Below are positions 4,696 through 63,958 of a DNA stretch of 64,000 nucleotides, piece after piece. Below the pieces are notes generated by a model. That model saw only the letters and a list, made by a program, of their open reading frames with translations, was not told where the DNA came from and did not search any database. The position numbers and the translations under genes are program-made. The DNA comes from Brevundimonas naejangsanensis (GTDB lineage: Bacteria; Pseudomonadota; Alphaproteobacteria; Caulobacterales; Caulobacteraceae). The stretch lies in contig NZ_CP032707.1 of NCBI RefSeq assembly GCF_003627995.1, positions 62,001-126,000 of the forward strand. The letters run 5' to 3'. Positions within the stretch are counted from its first letter, which is position 1, and each line of letters begins with the position of its first letter.

Positions 4696-4858
4696 CCTTC
4701 TCCCCTCGTGGGAGAAGGTGGCCTGCGAAGCAGGTCGGATGAGGGGTGTCGCCGCGACGTCCACCCTTTATCCTGGCGACAGCGCCGCCCTGTCAGACGT
4801 CGCCGCAACCCCTCATCCGGTCGCTGCCGCGACCACCTTCTCCCACAAGGGGAGAAGG
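4696..4858. repeat. Inverted pair of dispersed two-hairpin repeats (copies A and A')
   Basis: Copy A runs left to right at 4696-4747 and copy A' right to left at 4808-4858. Each has an invariant hairpin CTTCTCCC-loop-GGGAGAAG, a short GTG linker, a second hairpin and a GGATGAGGGGT tail. The second stem differs between the copies but stays paired: CCTGC/GCAGG in A and GTCGC/GCGAC in A'. The pair fills the gap between astA and astD and could fold into one large structure in the transcript. Other copies are at 8001, 8097, 40265, 40360 and 63907. Confidence 0.9.
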
Positions 4859-4869
4859 GGAGAAAACGC

Positions 4870-6288
4870 ATGACCCACTTCACCTCCACCAACCCCGCCA
4901 CCGGCGAAACCGTCTGGGAGGGCGAAGCCGCCTCCGCCGAACAGGTCGGCGCCGCCGTCGAAGCCGCCCGCGCCGCCTTCCCCGACTGGGCCGACCGCCC
5001 GCGTCAGGACCGCATCGACGCGGTGAAACGCTATCAGGCCATCCTGAAAGAGCGCGCGCCCGAAATCGCCGAGACCATCGCCAGGGAAACCGGCAAGGCC
5101 CTGTGGGAGACCAAGGCCGAAGCCGCCGCCATGCAGGGCAAGGTCGACATCTCCATCCGCGCCTATGACGAGCGCACCGGCGAGCGCAGCAGCGACACCG
5201 CCTTCGGCCGCGCCGTCCTGCGGCACCGCCCGCACGGCGTCTCGGCTGTGCTCGGCCCGTTCAACTTCCCCGGCCACCTGCCCAACGGCCACATCGTCCC
5301 GGCCCTGCTGGCGGGCGATACGGTCGTGTTCAAGCCGTCCGAGGAAACGCCCCTGACCGGCCAGCTGATGGCCGAATGCCTTGAGGCCGCCGACCTGCCG
5401 ACCGGCGTGTTCAACATGGTGCAGGGCGGGCGCGACACCGGCGCGGCCCTGCTGGATCAGCCGATCGACGCCCTGATGTTCACCGGCTCGGGCGCGGCGG
5501 GCGCCCACTTCCGGCGCAAGTTCGCCGACGATCCCCACGTCATCCTGGCGCTGGAGCTGGGCGGCAACAACCCGCTGGTCGTCTGGGACGCCGCCGACGC
5601 CGAAGCTGTCGCCGGCATCGTGGTCCAGTCCGCCTTCGTCACCACCGGCCAGCGCTGCTCCTGCGCGCGCCGCCTGATCGTGCCGGAAGGCGCGCAGGGC
5701 GACGCCATCGTCGAGGCCGTCGCCGCCCTGTCGGATCGCCTGAACTTCGCCCCGTGGGACAGCGACCCTGAGCCCTACGCCGGCCCTCTGATCTCGGAAA
5801 AGGCCGCCAGCAACGCTCTGGCCGCCCTGCAACAGCGCATCGACGCGGGCGCTCGCGTGATCCGCGCCTCAGGCCCCGTCGACAACCTGCCGGGCGCCTT
5901 CGTGAAGCCTGCGATCATCGACGTCACCGGCGTCACGGTCGAGGACGAGGAAATGTTCGCCCCCTTCCTGCAGGTGCTTCGCGTCCCGAGCTTTGACGCC
6001 GCCATCGCCGCCGCCAACGCCACCAAGTACGGCCTGTCCGCGGGTCTGGTCAGCGATGAGGCGAAGAACTGGGACCGCTTCATCAACCGCATCCGCGCCG
6101 GCGTGGTGAACTTCAACCGCCCGACCACGGGGGCGGCGGGCGACATGCCTTTCGGCGGCCTCGGCGCCAGCGGCAACCACCGCCCCAGCGCCTGGTACGC
6201 CGCCGACTACTGCGCCTACCCGGTCGCCAGCTTCGAGGCCGGTTCGGTCAAGAACATCGAAAGCGAGATCAAGGGCTTGCGGGGATGA
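4870..6288 (+). CDS. astD: Succinylglutamate-semialdehyde dehydrogenase
   Basis: 472-residue aldehyde dehydrogenase superfamily enzyme oxidising N-succinylglutamate semialdehyde to N-succinylglutamate with NAD, the fourth AST step. Landmarks are FNFPGHLPNGHIVPALLAG, FTGSGAAGAHFRR (NAD binding), ELGGNNPLVVWD with the general-base Glu, and TTGQRCSCARR with the nucleophilic Cys. GHLPNGH is characteristic of AstD. The ATG at 4870 was chosen because the family begins close to TSTNPATGETVWEG; the frame is open further upstream through the repeats, but that is not coding. Its stop overlaps the next start as ATGA. Confidence 0.95.
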   Translation: MTHFTSTNPATGETVWEGEAASAEQVGAAVEAARAAFPDWADRPRQDRIDAVKRYQAILKERAPEIAETIARETGKALWETKAEAAAMQGKVDISIRAYDERTGERSSDTAFGRAVLRHRPHGVSAVLGPFNFPGHLPNGHIVPALLAGDTVVFKPSEETPLTGQLMAECLEAADLPTGVFNMVQGGRDTGAALLDQPIDALMFTGSGAAGAHFRRKFADDPHVILALELGGNNPLVVWDAADAEAVAGIVVQSAFVTTGQRCSCARRLIVPEGAQGDAIVEAVAALSDRLNFAPWDSDPEPYAGPLISEKAASNALAALQQRIDAGARVIRASGPVDNLPGAFVKPAIIDVTGVTVEDEEMFAPFLQVLRVPSFDAAIAAANATKYGLSAGLVSDEAKNWDRFINRIRAGVVNFNRPTTGAAGDMPFGGLGASGNHRPSAWYAADYCAYPVASFEAGSVKNIESEIKGLRG

Positions 6289-6656
6289 TCACCGACTGGC
6301 GCGGAGATCGTCGGATAGGTCCTCCTCCGCTGATCCAGCGGCTGGATATCTATTGGAAGCTCCCGCTCATCGCTTTCGTCGGTACTGCGTTACTCGTGCC
6401 CTTCATATTGCTGGTGAAGTTCGGTTGGCCTCCGGCGCTTGAGCCTCGCCGACTTGTCTTCATGTGGTGTGCGATGTTCACGCTAATGATGGTGGTCGTC
6501 AGTGAAGCTATTTGGCGCAATGGGCTATGGCGGGAACTCGCCGGGCTCATCGTCGTCACTGCAACCATTGTCACCGTCGTGTGGCTTTTCGCCTTACCTG
6601 TGGCGGCCGCCATCGGGCTGAGCCCGCCAGTAATGATCATCCCGGTGAGTTCATGA
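6285..6656 (+). CDS. Small membrane protein wedged between astD and astB
   Basis: 123 residues: a polar start (MITDWRGDRRIGPPPLIQRLD) followed by about three or four transmembrane helices and no charged catalytic residues. I do not recognise a family. Its base composition is visibly lower in GC than the flanking ast genes, with many T- or A-ending codons (for example GCT, ATC/ATA mixes, TTG), unlike the C/G-ending codons of the neighbours. It overlaps both neighbours by ATGA, at 6285-6288 with astD and 6653-6656 with astB, so it is translationally coupled. The picture is a transferred or fast-evolving gene fitted into the operon; a transport or accessory role is only a guess. Confidence 0.7.
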   Translation: MITDWRGDRRIGPPPLIQRLDIYWKLPLIAFVGTALLVPFILLVKFGWPPALEPRRLVFMWCAMFTLMMVVVSEAIWRNGLWRELAGLIVVTATIVTVVWLFALPVAAAIGLSPPVMIIPVSS

Positions 6657-7987
6657 CCCACGCCATCGAAGCCAACGCCGACGGCCTGATCGGGCCGACG
6701 CACTCCTACGCGGGGCTGTCGCCCGGCAACCTCGCCTCCAGCCTGAACAAGGGCCAAGCGTCGAACCCGGGCGCGGCCGTGCTGCAGGGCCTCGACAAGA
6801 TGAAGACCCTGGCCGACCTGGGCCTGCCCCAGTTCGTCCTGCCCCCGCACGAGCGGCCGAACATCCCCTTCCTGCGCGACCTCGGCTTTGCGGGCTCCGA
6901 CGCCCAGGTGCTGGAGCGGGCGTGGAAGGACGCGCCCTCCTTCGCCGCCGCCGCCTGTTCCGCCTCGCCCATGTGGGCCGCCAACGCCGCCACGGTGACG
7001 CCCAGCGCCGACGCCGCCGACGGCCGCGTCCACTTCACCCCCGCCAACCTGATCACCAACCTGCACCGCAGCCTGGAGCATGATCAGACGAAGCGCGCGC
7101 TGGACGCCCTCTTCCCCGACGCCAGCCGGTTCGCCGTCCACGACGCCCTGCCCTCCGTCGCCCACCTCGCCGACGAAGGCGCCGCCAACCACGTCCGCCT
7201 GTGCCGCGATCACGGCGAGGCGGGCGTCAATCTGATGGTTTGGGGCCGCGAGGCCTGGGAGCATTGGGACGGCCCCTACCCCGCCCGCCAGACGCGCGAG
7301 GCGTCCGAGGCGATCATGCGCCGCCACGCCGCGTCCGGCGCCGTCCTGGCCCGTCAGGGCAAGGCCGCCATCGCCGGCGGAACCTTCCACAACGACGTGG
7401 TCTGCGTCGGCGCCCTGGACACCCTCTTCTTCCACGAGCTGGCCTTCGAAGATACGAACGGAACCAAGGCCGCCATCCGCGCCGCCGCCGACGGCCGCTT
7501 CGAGCCGCAGTTCGTCGAGGTTTCGGCCGCCGACCTGCCGCTGGCCGACGCCATCAGCTCCTACCTGTTCAACTCCATGCTGATCCGGGTTCCGGGCCAG
7601 GACCGCCTGACCCTGATCTGTCCGACCGAGACGCGCGACAACCCGCGCAGCCATGCGGTGGCGCAGAGCCTCGCCGCCTCCAACGGCCCGATCGGCCATG
7701 TCGAATACGTCGACGTGCGCCAGTCGATGCGCAACGGCGGCGGCCCGGCCTGCCTGCGCCTGCGCGTCGTCCTGACCGAAGCCGAACTGGCGGCGACCAA
7801 CCCGGCCATGCGCCTGACCGACGCCCTGCACGTCCGTCTCAGCGACTGGGGCCGCCGCTGGTATCGCGACCGCCTGACCGCCCGCGACCTGGCCGATCCC
7901 AGCCTGCTCGACGAGACGCGCGGCGCCCTGGACGAGCTGACGCAGATCCTGAACCTGGGCGGCGGCTTCTACCCGTTCCAGCGCTGA
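6653..7987 (+). CDS. astB: N-succinylarginine dihydrolase
   Basis: 444 residues (E. coli enzyme 447). It converts succinylarginine to succinylornithine, CO2 and two ammonia, the second AST step. Family landmarks are DGLIGPTHSYAGLSPGNLAS at the start, MWAANAATVTPSADAADGR, GGTFHNDVVCVG, and the C-terminal NGGGPACLRLRV containing the catalytic cysteine of this guanidino-group modifying (penta-beta/alpha propeller) enzyme. The ATG at 6653 was chosen because it overlaps the preceding stop and gives the expected family N-terminus. astC (succinylornithine transaminase) is not in the window; a general ArgD-type transaminase elsewhere could supply that step. Confidence 0.95.
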   Translation: MTHAIEANADGLIGPTHSYAGLSPGNLASSLNKGQASNPGAAVLQGLDKMKTLADLGLPQFVLPPHERPNIPFLRDLGFAGSDAQVLERAWKDAPSFAAAACSASPMWAANAATVTPSADAADGRVHFTPANLITNLHRSLEHDQTKRALDALFPDASRFAVHDALPSVAHLADEGAANHVRLCRDHGEAGVNLMVWGREAWEHWDGPYPARQTREASEAIMRRHAASGAVLARQGKAAIAGGTFHNDVVCVGALDTLFFHELAFEDTNGTKAAIRAAADGRFEPQFVEVSAADLPLADAISSYLFNSMLIRVPGQDRLTLICPTETRDNPRSHAVAQSLAASNGPIGHVEYVDVRQSMRNGGGPACLRLRVVLTEAELAATNPAMRLTDALHVRLSDWGRRWYRDRLTARDLADPSLLDETRGALDELTQILNLGGGFYPFQR

Positions 7988-8000
7988 CGCCCTCCATCTC

Positions 8001-8149
8001 CCTTCTCCCCTTGTGGGAGAAGGTGGCCCGCGCAGCGGGTCGGATGAGGGGTCTTGCGACAGTAGATGAAGCGGATGATCGGTGAGGGACGGCGCAACCC
8101 CTCATCCGTCAGGCTTACGCCTGACACCTTCTCCCACAAGGGGAGAAGG
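8001..8149. repeat. Inverted pair of dispersed two-hairpin repeats (copies B and B')
   Basis: Copy B is at 8001-8052 on the plus strand and copy B' at 8097-8149 on the minus strand. The first hairpin is identical to the other copies; the second stem is CCCGC/GCGGG in B and a longer GTCAGGC/GCCTGAC in B'. The tail GGATGAGGGGT is conserved. The pair lies between the convergent ends of astB and phhA, where it may also act as a bidirectional transcription stop. Confidence 0.9.
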
Positions 8150-8338
8150 AAGACGCCAGGGCATCGCCAAACATCCTAATCCGACGCCTCTATCCCTGAA
8201 AAACATGGGGTTTGCGGGCGTCCGGAACGCTTTTGCGCGCCCGCCCTTCGTCGCGCGCCATCATCGCCTCCCAGCCAGCGCCACGAAGGAGATTTCAGAC
8301 GATTCAGACGAATTGGACTCTGTTTTTCCGAGAGCCGC
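8150..8338. other. Non-coding gap between repeat pair and phhA end
   Basis: No convincing gene. GGGCG at about 8215 and CGCCC at about 8242 could form a weak stem, and a T-rich patch (TGTTTTTC) lies just before the phhA stop, so this may be the phhA terminator area. Nothing else was seen. Confidence 0.4.
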
Positions 8339-9214
8339 TCAGGCGGCGAACCGCCCGCCCTTGGCGGCGTAGGCCTGCGTCCCGCGCGTGAAGACGTGAT
8401 CGGTCGGCAGGATGGTCTCGATCGGCAAGTCCTCGGCCCCCTTCAGCCGCTCGTAGATCGGGCCGAAGTCCTGCAGCGTCTCGCGCTTCAGCTGCTCGAT
8501 GCTGTCGATGACGAAATAGACCTGCTGGAAGTCGTCGATGCGATAGAGGGTCTTCATCACCCGCTCCAGGTCGAAGCCCAGGCGGTTCGGCGAGGCGTCC
8601 TCAAGGCTAAAGACGCTCTCGGTCGCCGACGACACGATGCCCGCGCCGTAGATGCGAAGGCCGCCCGCCTCCTGCATCAGGCCGAACTCGACCGTGTACC
8701 AGTAGAGCCGCGCCAGGTTCTGCAGCATCCCCAGCGACGCCGCGCGCTGCCCGCCCTTGCCATAGGCCTCCATATAGGCGGCGAAGTCGGGATCGGTCAG
8801 CATCGGCACATGGCCGAACACGTCGTGGAAGATGTCCGGCTCCTGCAGATAGTCCAGTTGATCCGGCTTGCGGATGAACTGCCCCGAGACGAAGCGGCGG
8901 TTGGCCAGGTGGTCGAAGAAGACGTCGTCCGGCACCAGGCCGGGAACGCAGACCACGGTCCAGCCGGTCAGGGCCTGAAGCTTGGGGTTCATCACCTCGA
9001 AGTCGGGGATGCCGCCCATGTTCAGGTCAAGGGCGTCCAGCCCGCGCAGGAAGGCCTCGCAGGCCCGGCCCGGCAGGATCTTCATCTGCCGCGCATAGAG
9101 GGTGTTCCAGGTCTCGTGCTCGACTTCGGTATAGGCCCCCCAATTCTGGGGAATGGTCCAGTCGGCGGCGGCGCCTTCCGGCGGCTGCTCGAAAACGTGC
9201 TCGAAGTCGGACAT
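8339..9214 (-). CDS. phhA: Phenylalanine 4-monooxygenase
   Basis: 291 residues, the usual bacterial monodomain length. A cytosolic, non-heme iron and tetrahydropterin enzyme that hydroxylates phenylalanine to tyrosine. The two iron-binding histidines are in EPDIFHDVFGHVP and the glutamate ligand is in YWYTVEFGLM; GIPDFEVMNPKL and RFVSGQFIRKPDQLDYLQ are further family landmarks. The start at 9214 (MSDFEHVFEQP) follows a GAGAGGAG site; an upstream GTG in frame would add 22 arginine-rich residues unlike the family. No pterin recycling gene (phhB) is adjacent. Confidence 0.96.
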   Translation of the reverse strand: MSDFEHVFEQPPEGAAADWTIPQNWGAYTEVEHETWNTLYARQMKILPGRACEAFLRGLDALDLNMGGIPDFEVMNPKLQALTGWTVVCVPGLVPDDVFFDHLANRRFVSGQFIRKPDQLDYLQEPDIFHDVFGHVPMLTDPDFAAYMEAYGKGGQRAASLGMLQNLARLYWYTVEFGLMQEAGGLRIYGAGIVSSATESVFSLEDASPNRLGFDLERVMKTLYRIDDFQQVYFVIDSIEQLKRETLQDFGPIYERLKGAEDLPIETILPTDHVFTRGTQAYAAKGGRFAA

Positions 9215-9286
9215 GGGGACGCTCCTCTCGGCTCTACGGCCGTTTCGAGGCAGATTAGCGCGCCGTCTCGCCCGCGTCACGCACGG

Positions 9287-9601
9287 CTATTGCAACGTTT
9301 GAGAGCGGGGCGCGTGGCGGCCATGGGCATCGATGGTGAACCACTCCCGCTCGTCTTCGGGGGACAAGGGTTCGATCTCCGGCGTCGCGACAAGGACGTC
9401 CTCGGCTGCGTAGGCCATCACGCCGCCTTCGGTGTCCGCGATGAGGATGCGGTAGAAAGGCTGGTCGCTGACGACCACGCCCGTCTCTGCGGCCGAACCT
9501 GCGTATTGGGCGTCCACATCGAGAACCAGACCATGGAAGGCGTGGTCGCGATGCCGGACGATCTGTCCGAGGCCGAACCGGGCTGTGTGAACCTGGGTCA
9601 T
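9287..9601 (-). CDS. hspQ: Heat shock protein HspQ / YccV-like hemimethylated DNA-binding protein
   Basis: 104 residues (E. coli HspQ 105). Typical segments are ARFGLGQIVRHRDHAFHGLVLDVD, VSDQPFYRILI and MAYAAEDVLV, giving the small beta-barrel YccV fold. In enterobacteria it binds hemimethylated oriC-type DNA in vitro and acts as a Lon specificity enhancer; in alphaproteobacteria the role is inferred only. The start at 9601 gives MTQVHTARFGLGQ, matching the family; a more upstream in-frame ATG would add 17 non-conserved residues. Its divergent partner is the Ppx/GppA gene, leaving a 162-base shared promoter region. Confidence 0.9.
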   Translation of the reverse strand: MTQVHTARFGLGQIVRHRDHAFHGLVLDVDAQYAGSAAETGVVVSDQPFYRILIADTEGGVMAYAAEDVLVATPEIEPLSPEDEREWFTIDAHGRHAPRSQTLQ

Positions 9602-9763
9602 GACCGCAGCATAGGCCGGGCCGTCTGAAGCCCATGAGGATGCGCTGTTCATCCTCCGGTCATCAGGTCGGCCGTCAGGTCACGGCTTTGCAGATGACGG
9701 CTTGGCGCGACAGGGCGCGAGGGTTTACCTTGTCGGGGACGGGCGCCGCTTCGGACCGCCCAC

Positions 9764-10882
9764 ATGAGAACTCGGCCCATGCCGGAGACCCCTGGCGCGC
9801 CCGGACGGCGCGACACGCGGTCCCTGCCTCGAAGGCCCCGCAGCAGCGGGCATTTCGATCGGGACGCGCCCCTCTATGGCGCGCTCGACCTGGGGACCAA
9901 CAATTGCCGCCTGCTGATCGCGCGCCCCGCGCGCGACGGCTTTCGCGTGGTCGATTCCTTCAGCCGCATCGTGCGCCTGGGCGAGAGTCTGTCGCGCACG
10001 GGCCGCCTGGACGACCGCGCGATGGACCGGGCCTATGACGCCCTGGCCCTGTGCGCCGAACGTCTGGTGCGCAAGGGGGTCGATCCCCAGCGCCTGACCG
10101 CCGTCGCCACCCAGGCCTGCCGCATGGCCGAGAACGGCCCCGCCTTCGTCGAGCGGGTGCGGCGCGGCACGGGCCTGCGCCTCACGATCATCGACCCGGC
10201 CGAAGAGGCCGCCCTGTCGGTCGCGGGCTGCCTCAACCTGTTCGACCCGCGCGCCGAGGCGGTGCTGGTCATCGACGTCGGCGGCGGCTCGACCGAGCTG
10301 TCCTGGCTGATGAAGGGCGCGCGCGGCTTCGACACCGTGGCCTGGATGTCGGCGCCGCTGGGTGTGGTCAGCCTGGCCGAGCGCCATCCCGAGCCCGAGG
10401 GCAGCCCGCCCGAGTGGTACGAGGCCATGGTCTCCGACTTCGGCGCCGCCATCGCCGCCGGGGGCCCCGGGGCCGCCGACTTCATGGCCCGCGTCCGCGA
10501 CGGCCGTGGCCACATGGTCGGCACCTCGGGCGCCATCACCAGCCTGGCCGGCATTCACCTGGGCCTGAAACGCTATCAGCGCGACCTGGTCGACGGCCTG
10601 TGGATGACGCGTGGCGACTGCGAGAAGGCGGCCGACCGCCTGATCGCCCTGGGCCCCGCGGGCCGCGCGGCGGAAAGCTGCATCGGGCCTGACCGCGCCG
10701 ACCTGGTGCTTGCCGGCGCGGCCATCCTGGAGGCGGTGCAGCGCGCCTGGCCGTGCGAGCGGGTGCGCGTCGCCGACCGCGGCCTGCGCGAAGGCCTGCT
10801 GCTGCGGAAGATGCGCGAGGACCGGCAGCAGAAGCCGCGTCGACGCAGGCGTCGCAAGCGTGGCGGCGGCGGCGGCGAATAA
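9764..10882 (+). CDS. Ppx/GppA-family phosphatase
   Basis: 372 residues of the actin/ASKHA fold. Phosphate-binding loops are visible as YGALDLGTNNCRLLIA, the glutamate-containing middle region, DVGGGSTELSWL and GTSGAITSLAGIH. The family hydrolyses inorganic polyphosphate or pppGpp. This is the short, single-catalytic-unit version common in alphaproteobacteria, lacking the C-terminal HD-like domain of the 500-residue E. coli enzymes, so substrate cannot be assigned. The first roughly 30 and last roughly 25 residues are arginine-rich and low in complexity (RRRRRRKRGGGGGE at the end). An alternative ATG lies 15 bases downstream. A partial repeat starts just after the stop. Confidence 0.9.
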   Translation: MRTRPMPETPGAPGRRDTRSLPRRPRSSGHFDRDAPLYGALDLGTNNCRLLIARPARDGFRVVDSFSRIVRLGESLSRTGRLDDRAMDRAYDALALCAERLVRKGVDPQRLTAVATQACRMAENGPAFVERVRRGTGLRLTIIDPAEEAALSVAGCLNLFDPRAEAVLVIDVGGGSTELSWLMKGARGFDTVAWMSAPLGVVSLAERHPEPEGSPPEWYEAMVSDFGAAIAAGGPGAADFMARVRDGRGHMVGTSGAITSLAGIHLGLKRYQRDLVDGLWMTRGDCEKAADRLIALGPAGRAAESCIGPDRADLVLAGAAILEAVQRAWPCERVRVADRGLREGLLLRKMREDRQQKPRRRRRRKRGGGGGE

Positions 10883-10885
10883 CAG

Positions 10886-10908
10886 CCTTCTCCCCTTGTG
10901 GGAGAAGG
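10886..10908 (+). repeat. Solo first hairpin of the dispersed repeat family
   Basis: Only the invariant hairpin CCTTCTCCCC-TTGT-GGGAGAAGG is present; the variable hairpin and GGATGAGGGGT tail are missing. It sits between the convergent Ppx/GppA gene and cyclophilin gene ends, 4 bases after one stop and 9 before the other, so it may serve as their shared terminator. Confidence 0.7.
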
Positions 10909-10916
10909 ATGCCGCG

Positions 10917-11798
10917 TCACTTCACCTCGACCGGCAGGTCGATGTCGCAAACCGAAAAGTCCGCGCCCCGCGCCGTTCGCGTCCTCTCAACCAGATCGCG
11001 GAACGGCGCGCTCGCCGTGCTCAGCACCCGCGCAACCGGCCGCTCCGCCTCGGCCATGTCGCCGGCCACACGCACACGCGTCATCCGGTCTGGCTCGGCG
11101 ACGATGCCGTCCGGCTTGGGGCTGAACTTCAGGGCGCGGACCACGTCCAGGCCCGACACAACCCGGCCCCACACCGTGTAGCGCTTGTCCAGCGCCGGAT
11201 AGGGCTGGCGCATCAGGAAGAACTGGCTGTTGGCGCTGTCGGGGGCCTCATCGCGCGCCATGCCGGCGACGCCGGGGCAGTACAGGCCCCAGGCATGGAC
11301 CTTGCCGTCCGCCGTCGTGGCCATCACCGCGTCGGGCTGGGTCTGGACCGGCAGGGACTGGACGAAGCCGACCAGGGCGCCCGCCGGGGCGGCCACGGCG
11401 GCGAAGGGCGTCTGGGCGTCGCGGCGGAAGGTGAACTCGGCCTTGAGATCAGGGTGCCAGCTCTGGCCCTCGCCCGTGCCGAGCGGATCGCCGGTCTGGG
11501 CCATGAAGCCGTCGATGACCCGATGCCAGGGCACGCCGTCATAGAAGCCCGCCTTGGCCAGCAGGCGGATGCGGGCGACGTGGCCGGGCGCGGCCTCGGG
11601 CGTCATCTCCACCAGGACGCGGCCCTTGGTGGTGTCGATGACCAGCAGATTGTCGGGTGCCACGACGCGCCAGTCGCCGGCGGCGATCACCGGCGTGGCG
11701 TCGCTGGGCGCCGGGGCCTGCGCCCAGGCCACGGGCGCCGCGCAGGCGGCCGCCGCCAGAATAGCGGCTCCCGCCGCCCGAAGTCCTTGCCTCGTCAT
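10917..11798 (-). CDS. Exported cyclophilin-type peptidyl-prolyl isomerase (second copy)
   Basis: 293 residues. An N-terminal signal peptide (hydrophobic run ending AAPVAWAQA, about residues 8-27) points to the periplasm. The cyclophilin core is present: VPWHRVIDGFMAQTGDPLGTG supplies the catalytic Arg, Phe and Gln, MARDEAPDSANSQFF the second active-site segment, and YTVWGRVVSGLDVV the C-terminal loop. Compared with minimal 165-residue cyclophilins it carries an inserted loop around PAGALVGFVQSL and an extended C-terminus ending FSVCDIDLPVEVK. The gene just upstream encodes a paralogue with the same plan, so this is a tandem duplication. Confidence 0.92.
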   Translation of the reverse strand: MTRQGLRAAGAAILAAAACAAPVAWAQAPAPSDATPVIAAGDWRVVAPDNLLVIDTTKGRVLVEMTPEAAPGHVARIRLLAKAGFYDGVPWHRVIDGFMAQTGDPLGTGEGQSWHPDLKAEFTFRRDAQTPFAAVAAPAGALVGFVQSLPVQTQPDAVMATTADGKVHAWGLYCPGVAGMARDEAPDSANSQFFLMRQPYPALDKRYTVWGRVVSGLDVVRALKFSPKPDGIVAEPDRMTRVRVAGDMAEAERPVARVLSTASAPFRDLVERTRTARGADFSVCDIDLPVEVK

Positions 11799-40264: not shown

Positions 40265-40411
40265 CCTTCTCGCCTTATGGGAGAAGGTGGCAGGCGGAGC
40301 CTGACGGATGAGGGGTGGCGCTGGCCTGACATCCCGCCCCCTTCATCCGCTGTTGCAAGACCCCTCATCCGAGCGCCTCCGGCGCCCACCTTCTCCCACA
40401 AGGGGAGAAGG
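40265..40411. repeat. Inverted pair of dispersed two-hairpin repeats (copies C and C')
   Basis: Copy C is at 40265-40316 (plus) and C' at 40360-40411 (minus). In C the first hairpin has two loop changes (CGCCTTAT); its second stem is CAGGC/GCCTG. In C' the second stem is GCGCC/GGCGC. Both keep the GGATGAGGGGT tail. The pair occupies the gap between two convergent genes (306-residue protein and recN). Confidence 0.9.
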
Positions 40412-56428: not shown

Positions 56429-56908
56429 TCAGTTCGCCAGACTGGTGCAGCGGATCAGCCGGACCGGCAGAGCCGTCCCCTGGTCCAGCCAGGTCAGGCG
56501 TAAGGTCTCCTCCGTGGCCTCGAAGCGCACGCGCTCGCGGCTGGAGGCGCCCTCGGCTTCACAATCAAGCACGGCGTCATAGCCCATGCCCCGCTCGTCG
56601 ATGCTCACGATGGCGCAGCGGTTCTCATAGCCCCGCAATTCAGTGGTGGTGATCTCGATCGGCACGCGATCGCCGCGTGGATTGGCGCACCAGTCGGCCG
56701 CGGCGGCCCAACGCCCGATGAAGCTGGCCGCCCCCGCGCCGCGCATCAGGGGCTCCATGCCCGGCGGCCGGGGCGGCGGGGCCGCCGAGGTTCCCGGCCC
56801 CTGGACAGGGAGCGCCGGCTCGGTCGGCGGGTTGACGCGCTGAGGTCCGTCGCAGGCGGTCAGGGCCACCGTCAGGCCCGCGACGGACAAGATAGGATGA
56901 GGTTTCAT
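56429..56908 (-). CDS. Small lipoprotein of unknown function
   Basis: 159 residues. The signal ends in lipobox LTAC with lipidated Cys19, followed by a proline/glycine-rich linker and a compact domain ASFIGRWAAAADWCANPRGDRVPIEITTTELRGYENRCAIVSI with two cysteines, then DCEAEGASSRERVRFEAT and LRCTSLAN-like end, three or more cysteines in all. The domain resembles small exported proteins that begin GxWxxxxxxC, of unknown role, common in alphaproteobacteria. It converges on metY, with 3 bases between the stops. Confidence 0.82.
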   Translation of the reverse strand: MKPHPILSVAGLTVALTACDGPQRVNPPTEPALPVQGPGTSAAPPPRPPGMEPLMRGAGAASFIGRWAAAADWCANPRGDRVPIEITTTELRGYENRCAIVSIDERGMGYDAVLDCEAEGASSRERVRFEATEETLRLTWLDQGTALPVRLIRCTSLAN

Positions 56909-57013
56909 CCGCGTTCCAACGTCCGAAAGGTTCGGGACGTTGCGCCTGCCCCCCGGGCGCCGGCAGGCTTCCCCAGCCCGGCCTCCGTTGAGACCCGGCT
57001 TATGACTGCACGC

Positions 57014-58612
57014 CTACTGCCGCGCGGCGTCGCTGCGGGCGCGGACCTGGCCGAACTCGGAGGTCGGCTTCCAGCTCGGCCAGTGGTCGCCGTTGGCCAG
57101 TTGCAAGCCCAGGCGATACAGCAGCGTCAGGTTCTCGACCGCCGAGCGCAGGTCCCAGTCGGCCGACCATTCGTCGCTGGCGCGGTGATAATCGGCCCCG
57201 AACTTGGCCTTCCACGCCGCCAGCCCCGCCTCGCGGCCGCCCTCTACCCAGTCCACCCCGTGCCACGGCATCAGGGCGGGCACGCCCGCGCGGGCGAAGG
57301 GGAAATGGTCGGAGCGATAGTAGAAGTTCTGCTCGGGCTGGCCGTCGTCGGAGACGTAGCGGCCCTGGGCGTCGGCCAGGGTCTGCAGGTCATCCTCAAG
57401 GCTGGTCTGGCCCTTGCCGAAGATGGCCACGTCGCGCGTCGGCCCGCTGAGGGGCAGCATGTCGATGTTGATATCGGCCACGGTCATCTCCAGCGGGTAG
57501 ACCGGATCGGCGGCATAGGCGTAGGCCCCCATCAGGCCCATCTCCTCGGCGGCCATGTGGGCGAAGACAATGGTGCGGCTGGGCGCGGGCGCGGCCTTCA
57601 GCTGGCGCGCCATCTCGACCACGCCGATGGTGCCCGAGGCGTTGTCCCAGGCGCCGTTGAACACCTGATCCGCGCCCGCTCCGTGGCCGCCGACGCCCAG
57701 ATGGTCCCAGTGGGCCGAATAGATGATCACCTCGTCAGGCCGTGTCGTGCCGGGCAGCTTCGCCAGCAGATTGCGGGTGCGAAGGACCTTGATCGTCTCC
57801 TGGGCCGAGGCGGTCAGGCGAACGTCGGGAAGGGCGAAGGCGCGGAAGTCGCCGGTCTGCAGATGCGGCCGCAGCGCGGTCAGGTCCAGCCCCAGGGCCA
57901 TGGCCGTCTCGCGGGTCAGCGCGCCGCCCAACTCCAGATCGGCGGCGCCGGGCGTCATGGTGCGGGTGCGCGTCGCGCCGTTCGTCTCGCGCCGCCAGGC
58001 CGCCTCATCGTCGATGACCGTGAGCACGGCCAGTGCGCCGCGCCGCTTGGCCTCGTCGGCCTTGTAGGAGGCGTATTGATAGGCGGTGGCGTAGGGGCCG
58101 TTGAACAGGTCGCCGTCCGGCTCGCCCGCCACGACCAGAACCACCTTGCCGCGCACGTCCAGGTCGCCGTAGTCGTCCCAGCCTCGCTCGGGCGCGAAGA
58201 TGCCGTAGCCGGCGAAGACGACGGGCGCGTCAGCGACCGCGCCCCGGCCGCGCGGGTTCACGGCGCGCAGCGTCAGGTCCGTTCCCGGCGTCAGGGGATG
58301 GCGCACGCCGTCCATGCCCGTCCAGGCGGCGACAGCGGCTCCCGCGGGCGTCAGTTGCAGCAGGTCGACGGGCTGCAGCCACTGGCCGTTCGGGCCGCCG
58401 GGCGCCAACCCCATGGCCTCATACTGGGCCTGCAGCCAGTCCAGGGTCTTCTTTTCGCCGTCCGTGCCCGGATAGCGGCCCTGGAAGTCGTCGGCGCTGA
58501 TGATGCGGATCTCGTCCGAAAGGCGCTGGGCCGAGAAGTCCTGGGCCGAGGCCGCGCCCGCGACGAGCAGCAGAGCGGCGGCGGCGACGCCGCGAATGAG
58601 ACGATGATACAT
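57014..58612 (-). CDS. Exported M28 metallopeptidase (second copy)
   Basis: 532 residues with a signal peptide (ALLLVAGAASAQD). A PA-like insert (VVFAGYGIFAPERGWDDYGDLDVRGKVVLVVA) precedes the M28 zinc domain: YSAHWDHLG (His, Asp), NGAWDNASGTIG (bridging Asp), HMAAEEMGLMGA (catalytic Glu pair), DINIDMLPLSG and SDHFPFARAG (His). It is an aminopeptidase-type exopeptidase acting in the periplasm or medium. It lies about 100 bases downstream of a paralogue, 58712-60361, with the same plan; a stem-loop separates them. Confidence 0.93.
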   Translation of the reverse strand: MYHRLIRGVAAAALLLVAGAASAQDFSAQRLSDEIRIISADDFQGRYPGTDGEKKTLDWLQAQYEAMGLAPGGPNGQWLQPVDLLQLTPAGAAVAAWTGMDGVRHPLTPGTDLTLRAVNPRGRGAVADAPVVFAGYGIFAPERGWDDYGDLDVRGKVVLVVAGEPDGDLFNGPYATAYQYASYKADEAKRRGALAVLTVIDDEAAWRRETNGATRTRTMTPGAADLELGGALTRETAMALGLDLTALRPHLQTGDFRAFALPDVRLTASAQETIKVLRTRNLLAKLPGTTRPDEVIIYSAHWDHLGVGGHGAGADQVFNGAWDNASGTIGVVEMARQLKAAPAPSRTIVFAHMAAEEMGLMGAYAYAADPVYPLEMTVADINIDMLPLSGPTRDVAIFGKGQTSLEDDLQTLADAQGRYVSDDGQPEQNFYYRSDHFPFARAGVPALMPWHGVDWVEGGREAGLAAWKAKFGADYHRASDEWSADWDLRSAVENLTLLYRLGLQLANGDHWPSWKPTSEFGQVRARSDAARQ

Positions 58613-58653
58613 GGCGATTCCCTTGCCCCCTCGAGGCGCCTGCGCACAGTCAT

Positions 58654-58689
58654 AGGGCGGCCCCTTGCGAGGCCGCCCCTAACTTTTTT
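58654..58689. terminator. Stem-loop between the two M28 genes
   Basis: AGGGCGGCC and GGCCGCCCC form a stem with an 8-base loop; TTTTTT follows on the plus strand, while the genes are on the minus strand. On the transcribed strand it is an A-run then hairpin, so it may only weaken read-through, or terminate antisense transcripts. Confidence 0.45.
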
Positions 58690-58711
58690 GTAATGATCCG
58701 GGACCGGAGCG

Positions 58712-60361
58712 TCAGCGGCGCTGATCGGCGCTCTTGGCGCGTTCGAGGCCGAACTCGGAGCCCGGCTTCCACTGCGGCCAGTCACGGCTGTCAGCCAGGT
58801 CCCGGCCGACCTTGAACAGGACATCCAGATCCTGGAGCATGCCGGAATAGTCCCAGTCGGCCTCCCACTCGTCCGCTGCCTGGTGATAGCGGTTGGCGCG
58901 GTAGTCGGCGGCGCGGGCCTGACGCGGCTCGATCGGCGCGTCGACGAACTCGCCCGTCGAGGACAGATAGGCCATCGGCACCCCCTTCTTGGCGAGCGGG
59001 AAGTGGTCGGAGCGGAAATAGATGCCCGCCGCCGCGCCGGCGTCGCCGACGAAGCCGCGCCCTTGCGCCGCCGCGGCCGCGATAACCGGCTCGTCCAGTT
59101 CCGAATGGCCGTAGCCGGTCACGCCCAGCTTGCTCATCCGGCCGAAGACGGCGGTCGAATCCAGGTTGAACCCGCCGACCGTCTTCGCCAGCGGATACAG
59201 GGGATTGGCGGCGTAGAACTCCGAGCCGAGCAGGCCGCTTTCCTCGCCGGTGAAGCTGATCATGACGATGGTGCGCTCAGGTCGCGGCCCGGCGGCGAAG
59301 GCGCGCGCCAGTTCCAGCAGACCCGCCGTGCCCGAGGCGTTGTCGATGGCGCCGTTGAAGATGCGGTCGCCGTTGGCGTCCGGCTCGCCCATGCCGATGT
59401 GGTCCCAGTGGCCGGTGTAGAGGATGGTCTCGTCCGGATGGGTCGCGCCCTCCAGCTTGGCCACGACGTTGTGGGTGACGATGCGGTCGGTCTTCACGTC
59501 GAAGCTGGCGTCGAGGGTCGCGCCCTTCAGCTCAACCGGCTGGAAGTCGGGGCTGCGCGCCTTGATCTTCTCCTGCTCGAAATCGAGGCCGGCGCGTCGG
59601 AACAGGTCGACGGCCAGGTCGCGCTGGATCCAGCCCTCCATCGGCACGCGCTCGGCCGAGGGGTTCTGGCGCACGATGTCGAACTGCGGCACGCCCCAGG
59701 AGTTGGCGACCGTGGTCCAGCCGTAGGAGGCCGGCTTGGTCTCGTGGACGATCAGCACGCCCGCCGCGCCCTGGCGGGCCGCCTCTTCATACTTGTAGGT
59801 CCAGCGGCCGTAGTAGGTCATGGCCGAGCCGCCGAAGGTGTTCAGCGACGGGTCCTCGAAGTCGGCGTCGTTGACCAGGACCACGATGACCTTGCCGCGC
59901 ACGTCGGTCTTGAAGTCGTTCCACTGGCGCTCGGGGGCGTTGATGCCGTAGCCGACGAAGACGAGGGGCTTGTCCTTCAGGTCCACGGCCGCGCCCGGCA
60001 GGCGGGTGGTCATGGTGACCTCCTGGCCCTGCGTCAGCGACTGGCTCCAGTCGCCCAGCTTGAGGCGGCCCGAGACGTTGGAGACGGCGAAACGGTTCAG
60101 GCCCACGGCCTGGGTCCAGCCGCCGTTCTCGCCGCCCGGGGCGAAGCCTGCGGCCGCATACTGGCGGCTCAGGTAGTCGATGACCTTCTGTTCGGCCGGG
60201 GTGGCGATGCCGCGCCCCTCGAAGCTGTCATCGGACAGGACGCGAATGTCCTCGGAGATGCGCCCGGCGTCGAACTGGGGCGCGGTCTGCGCCTGGGCTG
60301 CGGCGGCGCTCGCCAGGGCGGCGGCGAACGCCAGGACGGCGGCGGAAGAGGAAAGACGCAT
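58712..60361 (-). CDS. Exported M28 metallopeptidase (first copy)
   Basis: 549 residues with a signal peptide (VLAFAAALASAAAAQAQT). PA-like insert LVFVGYGINAPERQWNDFKTDVRGKVIVVLVND; zinc domain YTGHWDHIGMG, NGAIDNASGTAGLLELARAF, FTGEESGLLGSEFYA, FNLDSTAVFGRM and SDHFPLAKKG, all ligands present. The start at 60361 was chosen because it begins the signal; an in-frame start 69 bases upstream adds a non-conserved segment. It follows the cytochrome bc1 terminator. Together the pair would degrade peptides for uptake; specificity unknown. Confidence 0.93.
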   Translation of the reverse strand: MRLSSSAAVLAFAAALASAAAAQAQTAPQFDAGRISEDIRVLSDDSFEGRGIATPAEQKVIDYLSRQYAAAGFAPGGENGGWTQAVGLNRFAVSNVSGRLKLGDWSQSLTQGQEVTMTTRLPGAAVDLKDKPLVFVGYGINAPERQWNDFKTDVRGKVIVVLVNDADFEDPSLNTFGGSAMTYYGRWTYKYEEAARQGAAGVLIVHETKPASYGWTTVANSWGVPQFDIVRQNPSAERVPMEGWIQRDLAVDLFRRAGLDFEQEKIKARSPDFQPVELKGATLDASFDVKTDRIVTHNVVAKLEGATHPDETILYTGHWDHIGMGEPDANGDRIFNGAIDNASGTAGLLELARAFAAGPRPERTIVMISFTGEESGLLGSEFYAANPLYPLAKTVGGFNLDSTAVFGRMSKLGVTGYGHSELDEPVIAAAAAQGRGFVGDAGAAAGIYFRSDHFPLAKKGVPMAYLSSTGEFVDAPIEPRQARAADYRANRYHQAADEWEADWDYSGMLQDLDVLFKVGRDLADSRDWPQWKPGSEFGLERAKSADQRR

Positions 60362-60446
60362 ACAGACGAACCCTTCGGCAAATGACGGTGCGACCGTAGT
60401 GGTCGAAATCGCCCGAGTCGACAGGCGCAAGGGCTGGATCGGACAC

Positions 60447-60476
60447 GAAAAAACCCGCCGGATCGCTCCGGCGGGT
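60447..60476 (-). terminator. Terminator of the petABC operon
   Basis: On the minus strand ACCCGCCGG and CCGGCGGGT form a 9-base stem with a 6-base loop, followed by TTTTTT. It lies 26 bases past the petC stop, a textbook Rho-independent terminator. Confidence 0.93.
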
Positions 60477-60502
60477 CTTGTCGTCTTGCAAAGGCGGACG
60501 CC

Positions 60503-61378
60503 TTAGTGGGCGACACCCTTCCAGATGCGGCGGTAGCTGGCGTAGGTCACGCCGGCGAAGCCCAGCAGGAAGATCAGCACGCCGAAGCCCATCTGCTTGC
60601 GCTCGACCATTTTCGGCTCGGACGTCCAGGCGATGAAGGCCGCGACGTCCTTGGCCATCTGGTCGACCGTGGCCTCGGTGCCGTCGTCAAAGGTGACCTG
60701 GCCGTTCTGCAGCGGCGCGGGCATGGCGATGAAGCCGCCCGGCGGCACGTGGCCCTTGCCTTCCCAGAACGGGGTCATGTCGCCCGCCATATAGGGGTTG
60801 TAGTGCTGGCCCGGCGCCATCTTCAGACCGGCCGGCGGGGTCGAATAGCCCGACAGCAGCGAATAGATGTAGTTGGCGCCGTCGTGGCGAGCCTTGGCCA
60901 TGACCGACAGGTCCGGCGGCATGGCGCCGCCGTTGGCCGCCGCGGCGGCCGTGGCGTTCGGATAGGGATTGGGGAAGCGGTCGGCCGTGGTGGCGTCGCG
61001 CATCAGGGCCTCGCCCGTTTCCGAGTCGATGTCGGCGACCTGGATCTCCTTGGCCAGAGCCTTCACGACCGGGTTGTCGTTCGGGTTCGGATACTTCGGA
61101 TTCCAGAACGGCCCGTGCTTGTCGCCCAGGTTGCGGAAGTGCACCAGGTCCATGCCGTGGCAGGAGGCGCAGACCTCGCGATAGACCTTGTAGCCGCGCT
61201 GCAGCTGGCCCTGATCGAAGGTGCCGAACGGCCCGGCGAAGCTGAAGCCGCCGTCGCGCGGATGCTTGGCGGCCCCGGCGGCCATCGCCGGGGCGGCGAT
61301 GGCGACCAGGCCGACAGCGGCCGTCACGGAAACGAGGATCTTGCGGAAGGACACGGTCTTTTTCTCGTTGCTCATCAT
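60503..61378 (-). CDS. petC: Cytochrome c1 of the bc1 complex
   Basis: 291 residues. The signal/anchor VSVTAAVGLVAIAAPAMAAG is followed by the heme motif YREVCASCHGMDLVHF; AGDMTPFWEGKGHVPPGG contains a conserved region with the axial Met segment further on (NPYMAGDMTPFW), and a C-terminal helix (MGFGVLIFLLGFAGVTYASYRRIW) anchors the protein. Electrons pass from Rieske to c1 and on to cytochrome c. Start chosen at MMSNEK, 6 bases after the petB stop; an immediately following ATG is equally possible. Last gene of petABC, followed by a strong terminator. Confidence 0.96.
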   Translation of the reverse strand: MMSNEKKTVSFRKILVSVTAAVGLVAIAAPAMAAGAAKHPRDGGFSFAGPFGTFDQGQLQRGYKVYREVCASCHGMDLVHFRNLGDKHGPFWNPKYPNPNDNPVVKALAKEIQVADIDSETGEALMRDATTADRFPNPYPNATAAAAANGGAMPPDLSVMAKARHDGANYIYSLLSGYSTPPAGLKMAPGQHYNPYMAGDMTPFWEGKGHVPPGGFIAMPAPLQNGQVTFDDGTEATVDQMAKDVAAFIAWTSEPKMVERKQMGFGVLIFLLGFAGVTYASYRRIWKGVAH

Positions 61379-61383
61379 CGCGC

Positions 61384-62682
61384 TCAGGCCTTCTCGGCTG
61401 CGGTCGACGGGAGCACGGGCTCCGAGATCGTCGCCGGGATCGGCAGCGGCTTCTCCCGCAGGCCGATGAGCGGCATCAGCACCAGGAAGAAGACGAAGTA
61501 GTAGGCCGTGAACAGACGGGTCAGCCACAGGTAGGAGTTCAGCTGGCCGTCGATCAGGTTGAAGCTGGGCATGCCCGGGACCACCGGAGCGTCCGGCAGC
61601 TGCGCGCCGCACCAGCCGAGGCCGAAGCAGACGAACAGGAAGATGATGAAGAAGGTCTTCATCGTCGGGCGGTAGCGCATCGAGCGCACCTTGGACGTAT
61701 CCAGCCAGGGCAGGACGAACAGCACGCCGATCGCCGCGAACATGGCCACCACGCCGCCGAACTTGTCGGGGATGGCGCGCAGGATCGCGTAGAAGGGCAG
61801 CATGTACCACTCAGGCACGATGTGCGCCGGGGTCTGCAGCGGGTTGGCCGGGATGTAGTTGTCGGCGTGGCCCAGGGCGTTCGGGTTGTAGAAGACGAAG
61901 ACCGCGAACAGGATCAGGAACAGGATGATGGCGAAGCCGTCCTTGACCGTGAAGTACGGGTGGAAGGGCAGCATGTCCTTCTTCTGGCGGTCCTTCGGGA
62001 TCAGGATGCCGACCGGGTTGTTCTGACCGGCGGCGTGCAGGGCCCACAGGTGCAGCACCACGCAGCCGGCGATGACGAACGGCAGCAGGTAGTGCAGCGA
62101 GAAGAAGCGGTTCAGGGTGGCGTTGTCGATAGCCGGGCCGCCGCGCAGCCAGACCAGGATCGGCTCGCCGACGACCGGGATGGCCCCGATCAGGTTGGTG
62201 ATGACCTCAGCGCCCCAGAAGGACATCTGGCCCCACGGCAGGACGTAGCCGAGGAAGGCGGTGGCGATCATCAGGAAGAAGATGACGCAGCCGACGATCC
62301 AGATCATCTCGCGCGGCGCCTTGTAGGAGCCGTAGTAGAGACCGCGCAGCATGTGCAGGTAGACGGCGACGAAGAACATCGACGCGCCGTTGGCGTGCAC
62401 ATAGCGGATCAGCCAGCCGCCGTTCACGTCGCGCATGATGCGCTCGACCGAGGCGAAGGCCAGGTCAACGTGCGGGGTGTAGTGCATGGCCAAGACGATG
62501 CCGGTGATGATCTGCGTCATCAGGCAGAGGGCCAGGATGCCGCCGAAGGTCCACCAGTAGTTCAGGTTCTTCGGGGTCGGCAGGTTGGCGTAGTCCATGC
62601 CGAAACGGATGATCGGCAGGCGGGTGTCCATCCACCGCTCAACGGCGGTTTTCGGGACGTAGGTGGATTCGTGATCGCTCAT
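61384..62682 (-). CDS. petB: Cytochrome b of the bc1 complex
   Basis: 432 residues with eight transmembrane helices. Landmarks are [31 protein letters not shown] (first heme-ligand helix), [32 protein letters not shown], the PEWY loop ([16 protein letters not shown], Qo site), and the N-terminal extension typical of alphaproteobacteria. It holds hemes bL and bH and oxidises ubiquinol at Qo. 6 bases before petC, 18 bases after petA. Confidence 0.97.
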
Positions 62683-62699
62683 GGTTCCTCGGTCCGTCC

Positions 62700-63254
62700 T
62701 CAGCCGATCTTCACGCGGGTGTCGGACAAGTATTCGTAGTTCGGCACGATCAGGTTCAACGGCGCCGGTCCCTTACGAATACGGCCCGAGGCGTCGTAGT
62801 GCGAACCGTGGCACGGGCAGAACCAGCCGCCGTAGTCGCCGGCGTTGAAGGTCGGCACGCAGCCCAGGTGGGTGCACGAGCCGATGACCACGAGATATTT
62901 CTCGTGACCCGGCTTGGTGCGTTCGGCGTCGGTCTGAGCCGGGCTGCCCACGGCGCCCTCGTCGATGACCTTCTTGAGCTCGGCCGGGGTGCGATAGCGC
63001 ACGAAGACCGGCTTGCCCTGCCACTTGATGACGACCTGCTGGCCTTCCTGGACCTTGGTGACGTCGAACTCGATCGACGCCAGGGCCAGGGTGTCGGCCG
63101 CCGGGTTCATCTGATTGATCAGGGGCCAGGCCACCATCACGCCGGCGCCGGCCGCAGCCGCGCCCGCCGCAATGTGGATGAAGTCGCGGCGAGTGGCGTC
63201 GCCACCCCCGTGTTGGCCGTCAGGCCCGTCAGCATTCACGACCGATTCGGCCAC
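62700..63254 (-). CDS. petA: Ubiquinol-cytochrome c reductase Rieske iron-sulfur subunit
   Basis: 184 residues. The Tat signal [19 protein letters not shown] is followed by one transmembrane anchor, then the Rieske domain: SCTHLGCVP and [21 protein letters not shown] carry the two Cys and two His ligands of the 2Fe-2S cluster and the disulfide cysteines. It is exported folded by the Tat system. GTG 63254 was preferred because AGAGGTG lies 6 bases upstream; a GTG at 63263 overlaps that site. First gene of petABC; trmL is divergent. Confidence 0.96.
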
Positions 63255-63449
63255 GCGTTTCACCTCTGCAACGCCGGTCGCCCGTCCCGATATGGAACGT
63301 CCACCGGATGGAACCCTTCATGCGATGGCAAACCCCTGCCTGTCCGGCCTCGATTTCGACCCCTTCGGACAAGCTGGAAAGACAGCTTGCGAAACGGTCG
63401 CAACAAAAGCCGCGACAAGGCCCCGCCCCGCGCGTATGAGGGCCTTAGA

Positions 63450-63905
63450 ATGCGTCTCGCCCTTTTTCAACCTGACATCCCCCATAATGTCGGCGCCTGC
63501 ATCCGACTGAGCGCCTGTTTCGGCGTGGAATTGCACGTCATCGAGCCGACGAGCTTCCAATTCGACGACCGCGCCATGAAGCGGGCGGCCCTGGATTACG
63601 GCCCCTTGTCCCATATGACGCGCCACGCCGACTGGGACGCCTTCCAGCGCGACCGGGCGCCGGGGCGGCTGGTGCTGTTCACCACGCGCGCGGCCGAGCC
63701 GCTGACGGATTTCGTCTTCCGTCCCGACGACGTCCTGCTGTTCGGCAAGGAAAGCGCCGGGGCGCCCGACTACGTCCACGCGGCGGCGGATGCGCGAATC
63801 TTCATCCCGATCCGGGCGGAGACCCGGTCGCTGAACCTGTCGGTCAGCGCGGGAATCGGCCTGCACGAGGCGTTGAGGCAGACGCAGGCGTTGCCGTCGC
63901 GCTGA
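63450..63905 (+). CDS. trmL: tRNA (cytidine/uridine-34 2'-O)-methyltransferase
   Basis: 151 residues, SPOUT fold. LALFQPDIPHNVGACIRLSACFGVELHVIEP is the signature of TrmL, which methylates the 2'-O of the wobble base of tRNA-Leu isoacceptors in E. coli. LVLFTTRAAEPL, LLFGKESAGAPD and RIFIPIRAETRSLNLSVSAGIGLHEAL carry the AdoMet-binding trefoil knot. The ATG at 63450 gives the standard N-terminus; about 195 bases separate it from divergent petA. A dispersed repeat starts just after its stop. Confidence 0.95.
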   Translation: MRLALFQPDIPHNVGACIRLSACFGVELHVIEPTSFQFDDRAMKRAALDYGPLSHMTRHADWDAFQRDRAPGRLVLFTTRAAEPLTDFVFRPDDVLLFGKESAGAPDYVHAAADARIFIPIRAETRSLNLSVSAGIGLHEALRQTQALPSR

Positions 63906-63906
63906 T

Positions 63907-63958
63907 CCTTCTCCCCTTGTGGGAGAAGGTGGACGGCGCAGCCGGACGGATGAGGGGT
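63907..63958 (+). repeat. Dispersed two-hairpin repeat, copy D
   Basis: The first hairpin matches the consensus; the second stem is CGGC/GCCG with a GCA loop; the GGATGAGGGGT tail is present. In the other places a copy in opposite orientation follows within about 40-60 bases; here the window ends 42 bases later, so the partner, if any, is outside. Confidence 0.85.

Follow-up and report, generated by a model that had tools for sequence, protein, structure and literature searches.

What kind of repeat keeps a hairpin paired while letting the sequence of that hairpin change? The question is raised by a 64,000-nucleotide stretch of Brevundimonas naejangsanensis DNA (hereafter the window; genome bases 62001–126000 of a genome that is one contig of 3,002,429 bases), which carries seven copies of a dispersed element, here called the module, made of two hairpins and a tail. 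We propose that the modules are potential class II (purine-motif) intrastrand triplexes of the BoxC/PIT kind, and that their folding in replication probably drives inversion or collapse of the paired units in which they occur.

A module consists, in this order, of a pyrimidine arm CCTTCTCCC, a loop and a purine arm GGGAGAAGG, which together make the first hairpin (hp1), then TG, a second hairpin (hp2), C and the tail GGATGAGGGG. A first-pass annotation of the window had listed seven copies together with the arms of their second hairpins; on re-reading, all seven lie where it had placed them and every arm is as it had given it. The features, in window coordinates unless stated otherwise, are as follows.

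4696–4858, no strand: dimer 1 (d1), head-to-head pair of 163 bp
4696–4746, plus strand: module 1, with hp1 at 4696–4718, hp2 unit at 4719–4736 (CCTGC/GCAGG) and tail at 4737–4746
4809–4858, minus strand: module 2, with tail at 4809–4818, hp2 unit at 4819–4835 (GTCGC/GCGAC) and hp1 at 4836–4858
8001–8149, no strand: dimer 2 (d2), found inverted at the corresponding site of the relative G507
8001–8051, plus strand: module 3, with hp1 at 8001–8023, hp2 unit at 8024–8041 (CCCGC/GCGGG) and tail at 8042–8051
8098–8149, minus strand: module 4, with tail at 8098–8107, hp2 unit at 8108–8126 (GTCAGGC/GCCTGAC) and hp1 at 8127–8149
40265–40411, no strand: dimer 3 (d3), whose site in relatives holds dimers in both orders and lone hp1
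40265–40315, plus strand: module 5, with hp1 at 40265–40287 (one mismatch), hp2 unit at 40288–40305 (CAGGC/GCCTG) and tail at 40306–40315
40361–40411, minus strand: module 6, with tail at 40361–40370, hp2 unit at 40371–40388 (GCGCC/GGCGC) and hp1 at 40389–40411
63907–63957, plus strand: module 7, of dimer 4 (d4), with hp1 at 63907–63929, hp2 unit at 63930–63947 (CGGC/GCCG) and tail at 63948–63957
window edge and beyond: partner of module 7, with hp1 at genome 126022–126045
10886–10908, no strand: lone hp1 hairpin without adjoining hp2 or tail, missed at first pass, which resembles the lone hp1 at orthologous d3 and d4 sites

The first hairpin, originally described as invariant, is nearly so; the copy at 40265 deviates from it and reads CTTCTCGC. 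Within the window CTTCTCCC occurs 18 times against 2.1 expected, and CCTTCTCC-N3-9-GGAGAAGG has seven matches and none in shuffled sequence. All seven window modules are predicted to fold into two hairpins as single-stranded DNA (z −3.3 to −5.8), and an Rfam scan of the window gave no match at the gathering threshold. Genome-wide, the strict hp1 pattern is found in 121 places, and in none when the pattern is reversed (the backward control). A loose regular expression applied to 49 genomic stretches gave 134 matches, 10 of which were discarded; the resulting figure of at least 124 clean modules is a lower bound, with isolated reverse-strand copies possibly left out. The tail, as had been noted at first pass, is conserved, and the 124 modules contain 66 distinct hp2 units of 14–32 nucleotides (nt).

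The second hairpin changes in sequence and stays paired. Perfect 5-bp arms were found in 33 of the 44 unique hp2 units of 18 nt, as compared with a mean of 2.3 and a maximum of 8 when right arms were shuffled (2,000 shuffles). In register, the covariation score is 0.73 and 95% of the cells are paired; a shift by one to three columns lowers the score to 0.03 or less. The same holds in other records, which were searched with a pattern that does not require pairing (at least 80 loci, those listed): hp2 stems of at least 4 bp are present in 44 of 62 unique units versus 9.8 after shuffling (maximum 18), and CTTCTCC lies at most 20 nt upstream in 84 of 95 modules, though the pattern did not demand it. 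The earlier claim that pairing is kept as sequence changes has therefore passed a statistical check, and the structural claim, that is, the anatomy of the repeat and the paired hp2, is well supported by comparison.

We found that the tail mirrors the hp1 purine arm, with T permitted opposite one A. The first-pass annotation had missed this relation, as it had the unlike hp2 types of partners and the inverted dimers and lone hp1 of relatives described below. A scan of 234 loci for polypurine hairpins with a further hairpin after them added to the family of this genome others with changed arms and tails, so that five families now have mirrored purine arm and tail (GGGAGAAGG/GGATGAGGG, GGGGGAAGG/GGAAGGGGG, GGGAGAGGG/GGGTGAGGG, GGGGAGGG/GGGTGGGG and GGGGGAG/GAGGGGG); of the 120 possible ways to assign tails to families, the true one alone reaches the observed mirror score, with the caveat that the consensus pairs were chosen by hand and that only the asymmetric families discriminate mirror from direct matching. 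Over 46 rows with G-rich tails the mirror score is 336, compared with 308.5 (standard deviation 4.1) when arms are shuffled among tails, and lies above all 5,000 such shuffles.

Comparison also points to linkage at the level of the base triad. One whole triad separates the B. naejangsanensis family (F1) from its sister family F3. F1 arm plus F1 tail gave 318 matches (120 of them from B. naejangsanensis) in 15 of 385 sampled alphaproteobacterial genomes from 12 taxonomic families, F3 arm plus F3 tail gave 372 matches in 46 of the sampled genomes, and the backward control gave none. Chimeras that join an arm of one family to a tail of the other number 3 and 2, versus 690 matched modules, among the 52 genomes with either family; the nine genomes with both hold 65 and 58 matched modules versus 1 chimera. 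Where the families stand side by side, each module keeps its own tail: in G174, nine of the ten F1 modules listed adjoin an F3 module, each with a tail matching its own hp1, and F1–F3 neighbour pairs number, among the matches listed, at least three in G417 and at least one in G151. Arm and tail would therefore be matched within each module, unless F1 and F3 are lineages that simply do not recombine.

Other mirror families are found in B. naejangsanensis as well. It carries CCCTCCCC/GGGGAGGG with GGGTGGGG, and CCTCTCCC/GGGAGAGG with GGGTGAGGG, at L035 (~2720), L037 (~170), L061 and L068 (2709). The arrangement ATCTCCCCC-loop-GGGGGAGAT, hairpin, GAGGGGG, found at L130, L144, L158, L168, L181 and L195, is likely a further member of the mirror group. 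Another short palindromic repeat, GCGCTCAAGCAGCCGAAGGCGTTAGCGC and its variants, adjoins some dimers (window ~4662–4692; genome ~866280, 907511 and 1821210), and the flank CAGAGTCCAATTCGTCTGAATCGTCTGAAATC is common to hairpins at two places, L041 (genome 572238) and L066 (genome 1995665).

Modules occur in pairs, and the partners are not alike. All 59 pairs of neighbouring modules at most 300 bp apart are head-to-head. The first-pass annotation had seen six of its seven copies as head-to-head; the seventh is paired too, and with its partner just past the window edge all four window sites are head-to-head dimers. Partners share hp1, loop included, in 38 of 59 pairs, which is commoner than chance (19.7 expected), whereas the hp2 units of partners resemble each other less than expected at random (identity 0.495 versus 0.597, standard deviation 0.021, 0 of 5,000). 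With hp2 units divided into those ending in AC and the rest, a split that was chosen after the data had been seen, 53 of the 59 dimers are of mixed type versus 29.6 expected (0 of 50,000), and among the distinct combinations 45 of 51 are mixed (25.6 expected). None of the 53 dimers listed for seven relatives within the genus has the same arm class twice, where 8.9 are expected; the P value of 5e-5 is too small, because dimers are copied as units. In E. coli MG1655, every TM_ECO pair (5 of 5) combines a type A with a type B repeat (PMC4666352).

To follow the dimers across species, we compared the orthologous intergenic regions of d1–d4 in relatives with fetched loci. The 68 readable site-genome pairs hold a dimer in 18 cases, one module in 4, a lone hp1 in 7, and nothing or another repeat in 39; two of the scores are doubtful, namely the d4 dimer of G462, half of which is an artefact of the regular expression, and the d3 lone hp1 of G524. 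At d2 the hp2 units of B. naejangsanensis and G507 are swapped and the spacers are reverse complements of each other (z 8.7 inverted, 0.3 in the same orientation). Similarly, the d3 dimer of G446 is inverted relative to those of G507, G513 and G470 (spacer z 9.9–11.4 inverted versus 1.2–2.8 in the same orientation), and at d4 the order of hp2 types differs between B. naejangsanensis and G513, with spacers that cannot be aligned. A lone hp1 stands between the same flanks at two of the four sites, at d3 in G481 (with one mismatch), G508, G489 and G493, and at d4 in G446 and G481. At d1 the same dimer is found in six genomes including B. naejangsanensis; the remaining genomes carry different dimers there, some other palindromic repeat, or none. 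In a 400-kb piece of G513, five of the ten B. naejangsanensis dimers below 430 kb are anchored and five are not.

The d1 site (window 4695–4858) appears to be an intergenic hot spot, since in two relatives (L274 of G489, L284 of G497) it holds a different palindromic repeat, TCATCCCGGCGGACGCCGGGACCCAGT... This repeat we take to be possibly CGTC/dRS3-like.

If the modules are class II triplexes, the pyrimidine and purine arms of hp1 would form a duplex on which the mirror tail folds back as the third strand, and hp2, free in sequence and kept in pairing, would replace the 3-nt second loop of TM_ECO and cap the fold. Two head-to-head modules, usually with unlike hp2 types, would behave as one unit of ~145 bp. 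Modules would fold when their strand is single, which we infer to be mainly during replication; a folded module might then stall the polymerase or cause a template switch, upon which the unit would invert in place or collapse, presumably in that direction, to a single hp1. With flipped and single-hairpin versions at orthologous sites in relatives, the dimers may be a structural source of small genome rearrangements. What we infer from the comparisons above is that these modules form triplexes, that replication is the step involved and that the fold is under selection; for the short-loop version only, others have demonstrated both a triplex in vitro and, in E. coli, local instability (PMC4666352). 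If this reading is right, intrastrand triplex repeats would be wider spread than reported, with a 6-nt loop limit missing the modules, and the covariation would amount to evolutionary evidence for a non-B DNA fold, a matter that in-cell chemistry has left unsettled. The rule of unlike partners, together with the in-place flips, makes the role of BoxC-type repeats testable.

Several observations weigh against this reading, in addition to the limits noted above on the mirror families, on the type split and on its P value. In vivo footprinting in E. coli revealed no stable triplex at the short-loop repeats (PMC4666352). Over 72 unselected non-F1 rows the mirror and direct means are equal (5.90 each), with the mirror better in 14 rows and worse in 15, a tie due to the near mirror symmetry of the F3 arm and to the many rows that hold no element. 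Some elements misfit: L132 has two hairpins with arms GGGGGAAGG and GGGGAAGG but an F1 tail, L094 combines GGGGGAGGG with GGGCGAGGGG, and some B. naejangsanensis copies of F4 read GGGCGGGG. One of the chimeras is a B. naejangsanensis copy, and the rarity of chimeras could reflect two non-recombining lineages. The lack of identical hp2 in partners (0 of 59 versus 1.9 expected) is not significant (P 0.13), and the rule of unlike partners has exceptions beyond the genus, hp2 being identical in L167 and nearly so in L107. Finally, inversions were seen only at two of the four sites (d2 and d3), the B. naejangsanensis d3 spacer is unrelated to those of the relatives, and a lone hp1 might represent a site as it was prior to insertion.

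The pairing of hp2 might instead be kept by replication itself. Quasi-palindrome correction, in which a template switch copies one arm to the other, is known in bacteria, and it would keep arms paired whether or not the pairing is useful; the differences between species at the dimers, inversions and lone hp1, do resemble strand switching. However, hp1 is just as palindromic and yet its sequence is conserved, which correction by itself would not explain. Moreover, in the six orthologous d1 dimers, a single site, variable columns number 0 of 36 in the hp1 arms, 0 of 20 in the hp2 arms and 1 of 20 in the tails, whereas 25 of 63 vary in the spacer, which is contrary to a fast turnover of the arms. 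We consider this explanation unlikely.

We are just as doubtful that the elements act as RNA, that is, as paired 3′-end hairpins that would terminate or protect transcripts coming from either side. According to a crude gene finder, 47 of the 59 dimers are located between predicted genes (22 convergent, 21 co-directional and 4 divergent) and the median distance of dimers to gene 3′ ends is 9 nt, which, along with the two stable hairpins that DNA folding parameters predict for each module, would suit such a role; the other 12 overlap a predicted gene, some with an apparently wrong start. Yet in the copies read the hairpins have no T run after them, the tail would be left unexplained, and a position at gene ends may merely reflect tolerance. 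Furthermore, RNA is reported not to form purine-motif triplexes, and no terminator activity was seen for PIT elements (PMC4666352).

Somewhat less probable still is that a DNA-binding protein selects hp1 and the tail, with hp2 as a spacer hairpin and the mirror look a by-product of short G-rich purine tracts. The tail is indeed short and G-rich, so mirror matches come easily; the tie over unselected rows and the misfitting elements are in keeping with this, and the case for a triplex in the modules is one of sequence comparison. But a dimeric protein would favour inverted rather than mirror symmetry. The mirror relation is, moreover, kept in five families, F1 and F3 swap all three bases of the triad together, and a triplex fold in vitro is established for the relative with the short loop (PMC4666352).

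As candidate movers of the modules, Y1 enzymes only were sought; the genomes covered were that of B. naejangsanensis, 60 from its family, 122 from its genus and 16 selected ones. The first-pass annotation had suggested an element like a repetitive extragenic palindrome (REP) or a miniature inverted-repeat transposable element (MITE), with a structured core, and a search for a REP-associated tyrosine transposase (RAYT). The structured, dispersed repeat stands; a RAYT as its mover is not supported. Y1_Tnp (PF01797) has no match in the B. naejangsanensis genome and matches in 4 of the 122 genus genomes, which hold 9–22 strict modules each versus 120 in B. naejangsanensis, whereas 118 of 121 sampled Brevundimonas genomes carry modules (0 to 120 strict copies per genome). 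None of 15 Y1 loci (4 + 11, with ~1.5 kb on each side, less at contig ends, and neighbourhoods L267–L269 left out) is flanked by modules. Nor do the ends of the 59 dimers show the target duplication of a DDE-type MITE, direct repeats of 2–9 nt being no commoner than in shuffled sequence. For all their high copy number, head-to-head pairs and mostly intergenic position, the modules are thus most improbable as classical REPs or REPINs moved by a RAYT or another Y1 transposase, a mover that we rejected on the absent genome match, the four genus genomes with few modules and the 15 unflanked loci.

At L228 (~1160–1290), the only such case among the 15, an F2 dimer lies ~100 bp from an inverted repeat that brackets the Y1 transposase gene. 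Weak matches to the modules were found in 4 of 72,556 plasmid records and 1 of 50,697 phage records, and the modules are therefore not an obvious passenger. Modules also appear in records named Geobacteraceae, Deltaproteobacteria, Acidobacteriota, Planctomycetota, Legionella and Lysobacter (L104, L118, L121, L138, L160, L164, L173 and L179); several of these are metagenome bins, and such modules could be contamination or chance.

The triplex reading invites a bolder one, to which we give little credence so far: that the dimers are self-contained, transposase-free rearrangement units, with the fold a substrate for host enzymes and the paired hp2 a means of keeping partners unlike. Because hp1 is palindromic, its two end copies are both direct and inverted repeats, and exchange between them would flip the ~145-bp core or drop it, leaving one hp1. 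Run backwards, such an exchange could give rise to new copies where a lone hp1 stands. The single-stranded triplex or hairpin fold would be recognised by host replication or recombination enzymes, and unlike hp2 would let each module fold on itself, so that the two would not form one long unstable palindrome. 

How do the modules compare with known repeats? RIME of Rhizobium and Bru-RS of Brucella, compared by description only, are also palindromic alphaproteobacterial repeats of ~100 bp, and may be relatives. The RAYT-associated GTAG REPs and REPINs are likewise short palindromes in head-to-head pairs; in contrast to them, the modules lie in a genome without a RAYT match, and those read have no GTAG tag, though no search was aimed at GTAG. 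CGTC-tagged REPs are common in alphaproteobacteria, mostly head-to-head, heterodimeric in several families and without an associated transposase (PMC3733652), and some hp2 units of the modules read CGTC...CCA on the opposite strand. They differ in having single stems of 8–9 bp that nearly always begin with A-T, and the available part of PMC3733652 describes neither a second hairpin nor a mirror tail. Membership of the CGTC REP superfamily, which calls for A-T in the first two stem positions and a CCA tail, was rejected, as the outermost pair of hp2 is G-C in 123 of 124 modules and the second pair is T-A in 5 of 124.

The nearest likeness is to BoxC/PIT/TM_ECO, on whose triplexes Hoyne and Maher reportedly worked earlier. 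These are intrastrand triplex repeats whose oligonucleotides form triplexes in vitro by circular dichroism and nuclear magnetic resonance (Holder et al. 2015, PMC4666352); they change locally at a high rate in E. coli, and TM_ECO is always intergenic in MG1655 (PMC4666352). A typed BoxC-like query had a place covering at least 80% of it in 4,728 of 5,426 E. coli genomes. As far as PMC4666352 was available, the modules share with these repeats the order of pyrimidine arm, short loop, purine arm, loop and mirror-image purine third strand (class II), as well as scattered occurrence, a copy number that is very variable among relatives, inverted two-type pairs and changes that leave a hairpin. The predicted class II core (pyrimidine arm, loop of 3–6 nt, purine arm, loop, and purine third strand as G·GC, A·AT or T·AT) is found in the modules, with L132 and L094 as misfits. 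The purine arm and tail of F3 fit the TM_ECO consensus (PMC4666352), whereas F1 departs from the stem consensus CCCTCNCCC/GGGNGAGGG/GGGNGAGGG with its CCTTCTCCC/GGGAGAAGG/GGATGAGGG, having a triad T-A·A where TM_ECO has C-G·G.

The second loop differs most: it is 3 nt in TM_ECO, and the ITxF search allows loops of 1–6 nt (PMC4666352), whereas in the modules it is the 14–32-nt unit with its covarying hairpin. The open-access literature searched yielded no account of a second-loop hairpin in BoxC/PIT-type repeats, and a literature text search with the module sequence gave no title on a bacterial repeat among the matches listed. In-place inversion is not described for TM_ECO in the available part of PMC4666352, and its main text names no alphaproteobacteria, Caulobacter, Rhizobium or Xanthomonas. 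Since the hairpin takes loop 2 beyond the 6-nt limit, we place the modules not as members of TM_ECO but as a variant that would work like it: a large form of a known kind of repeat, apparently overlooked, and open to testing.

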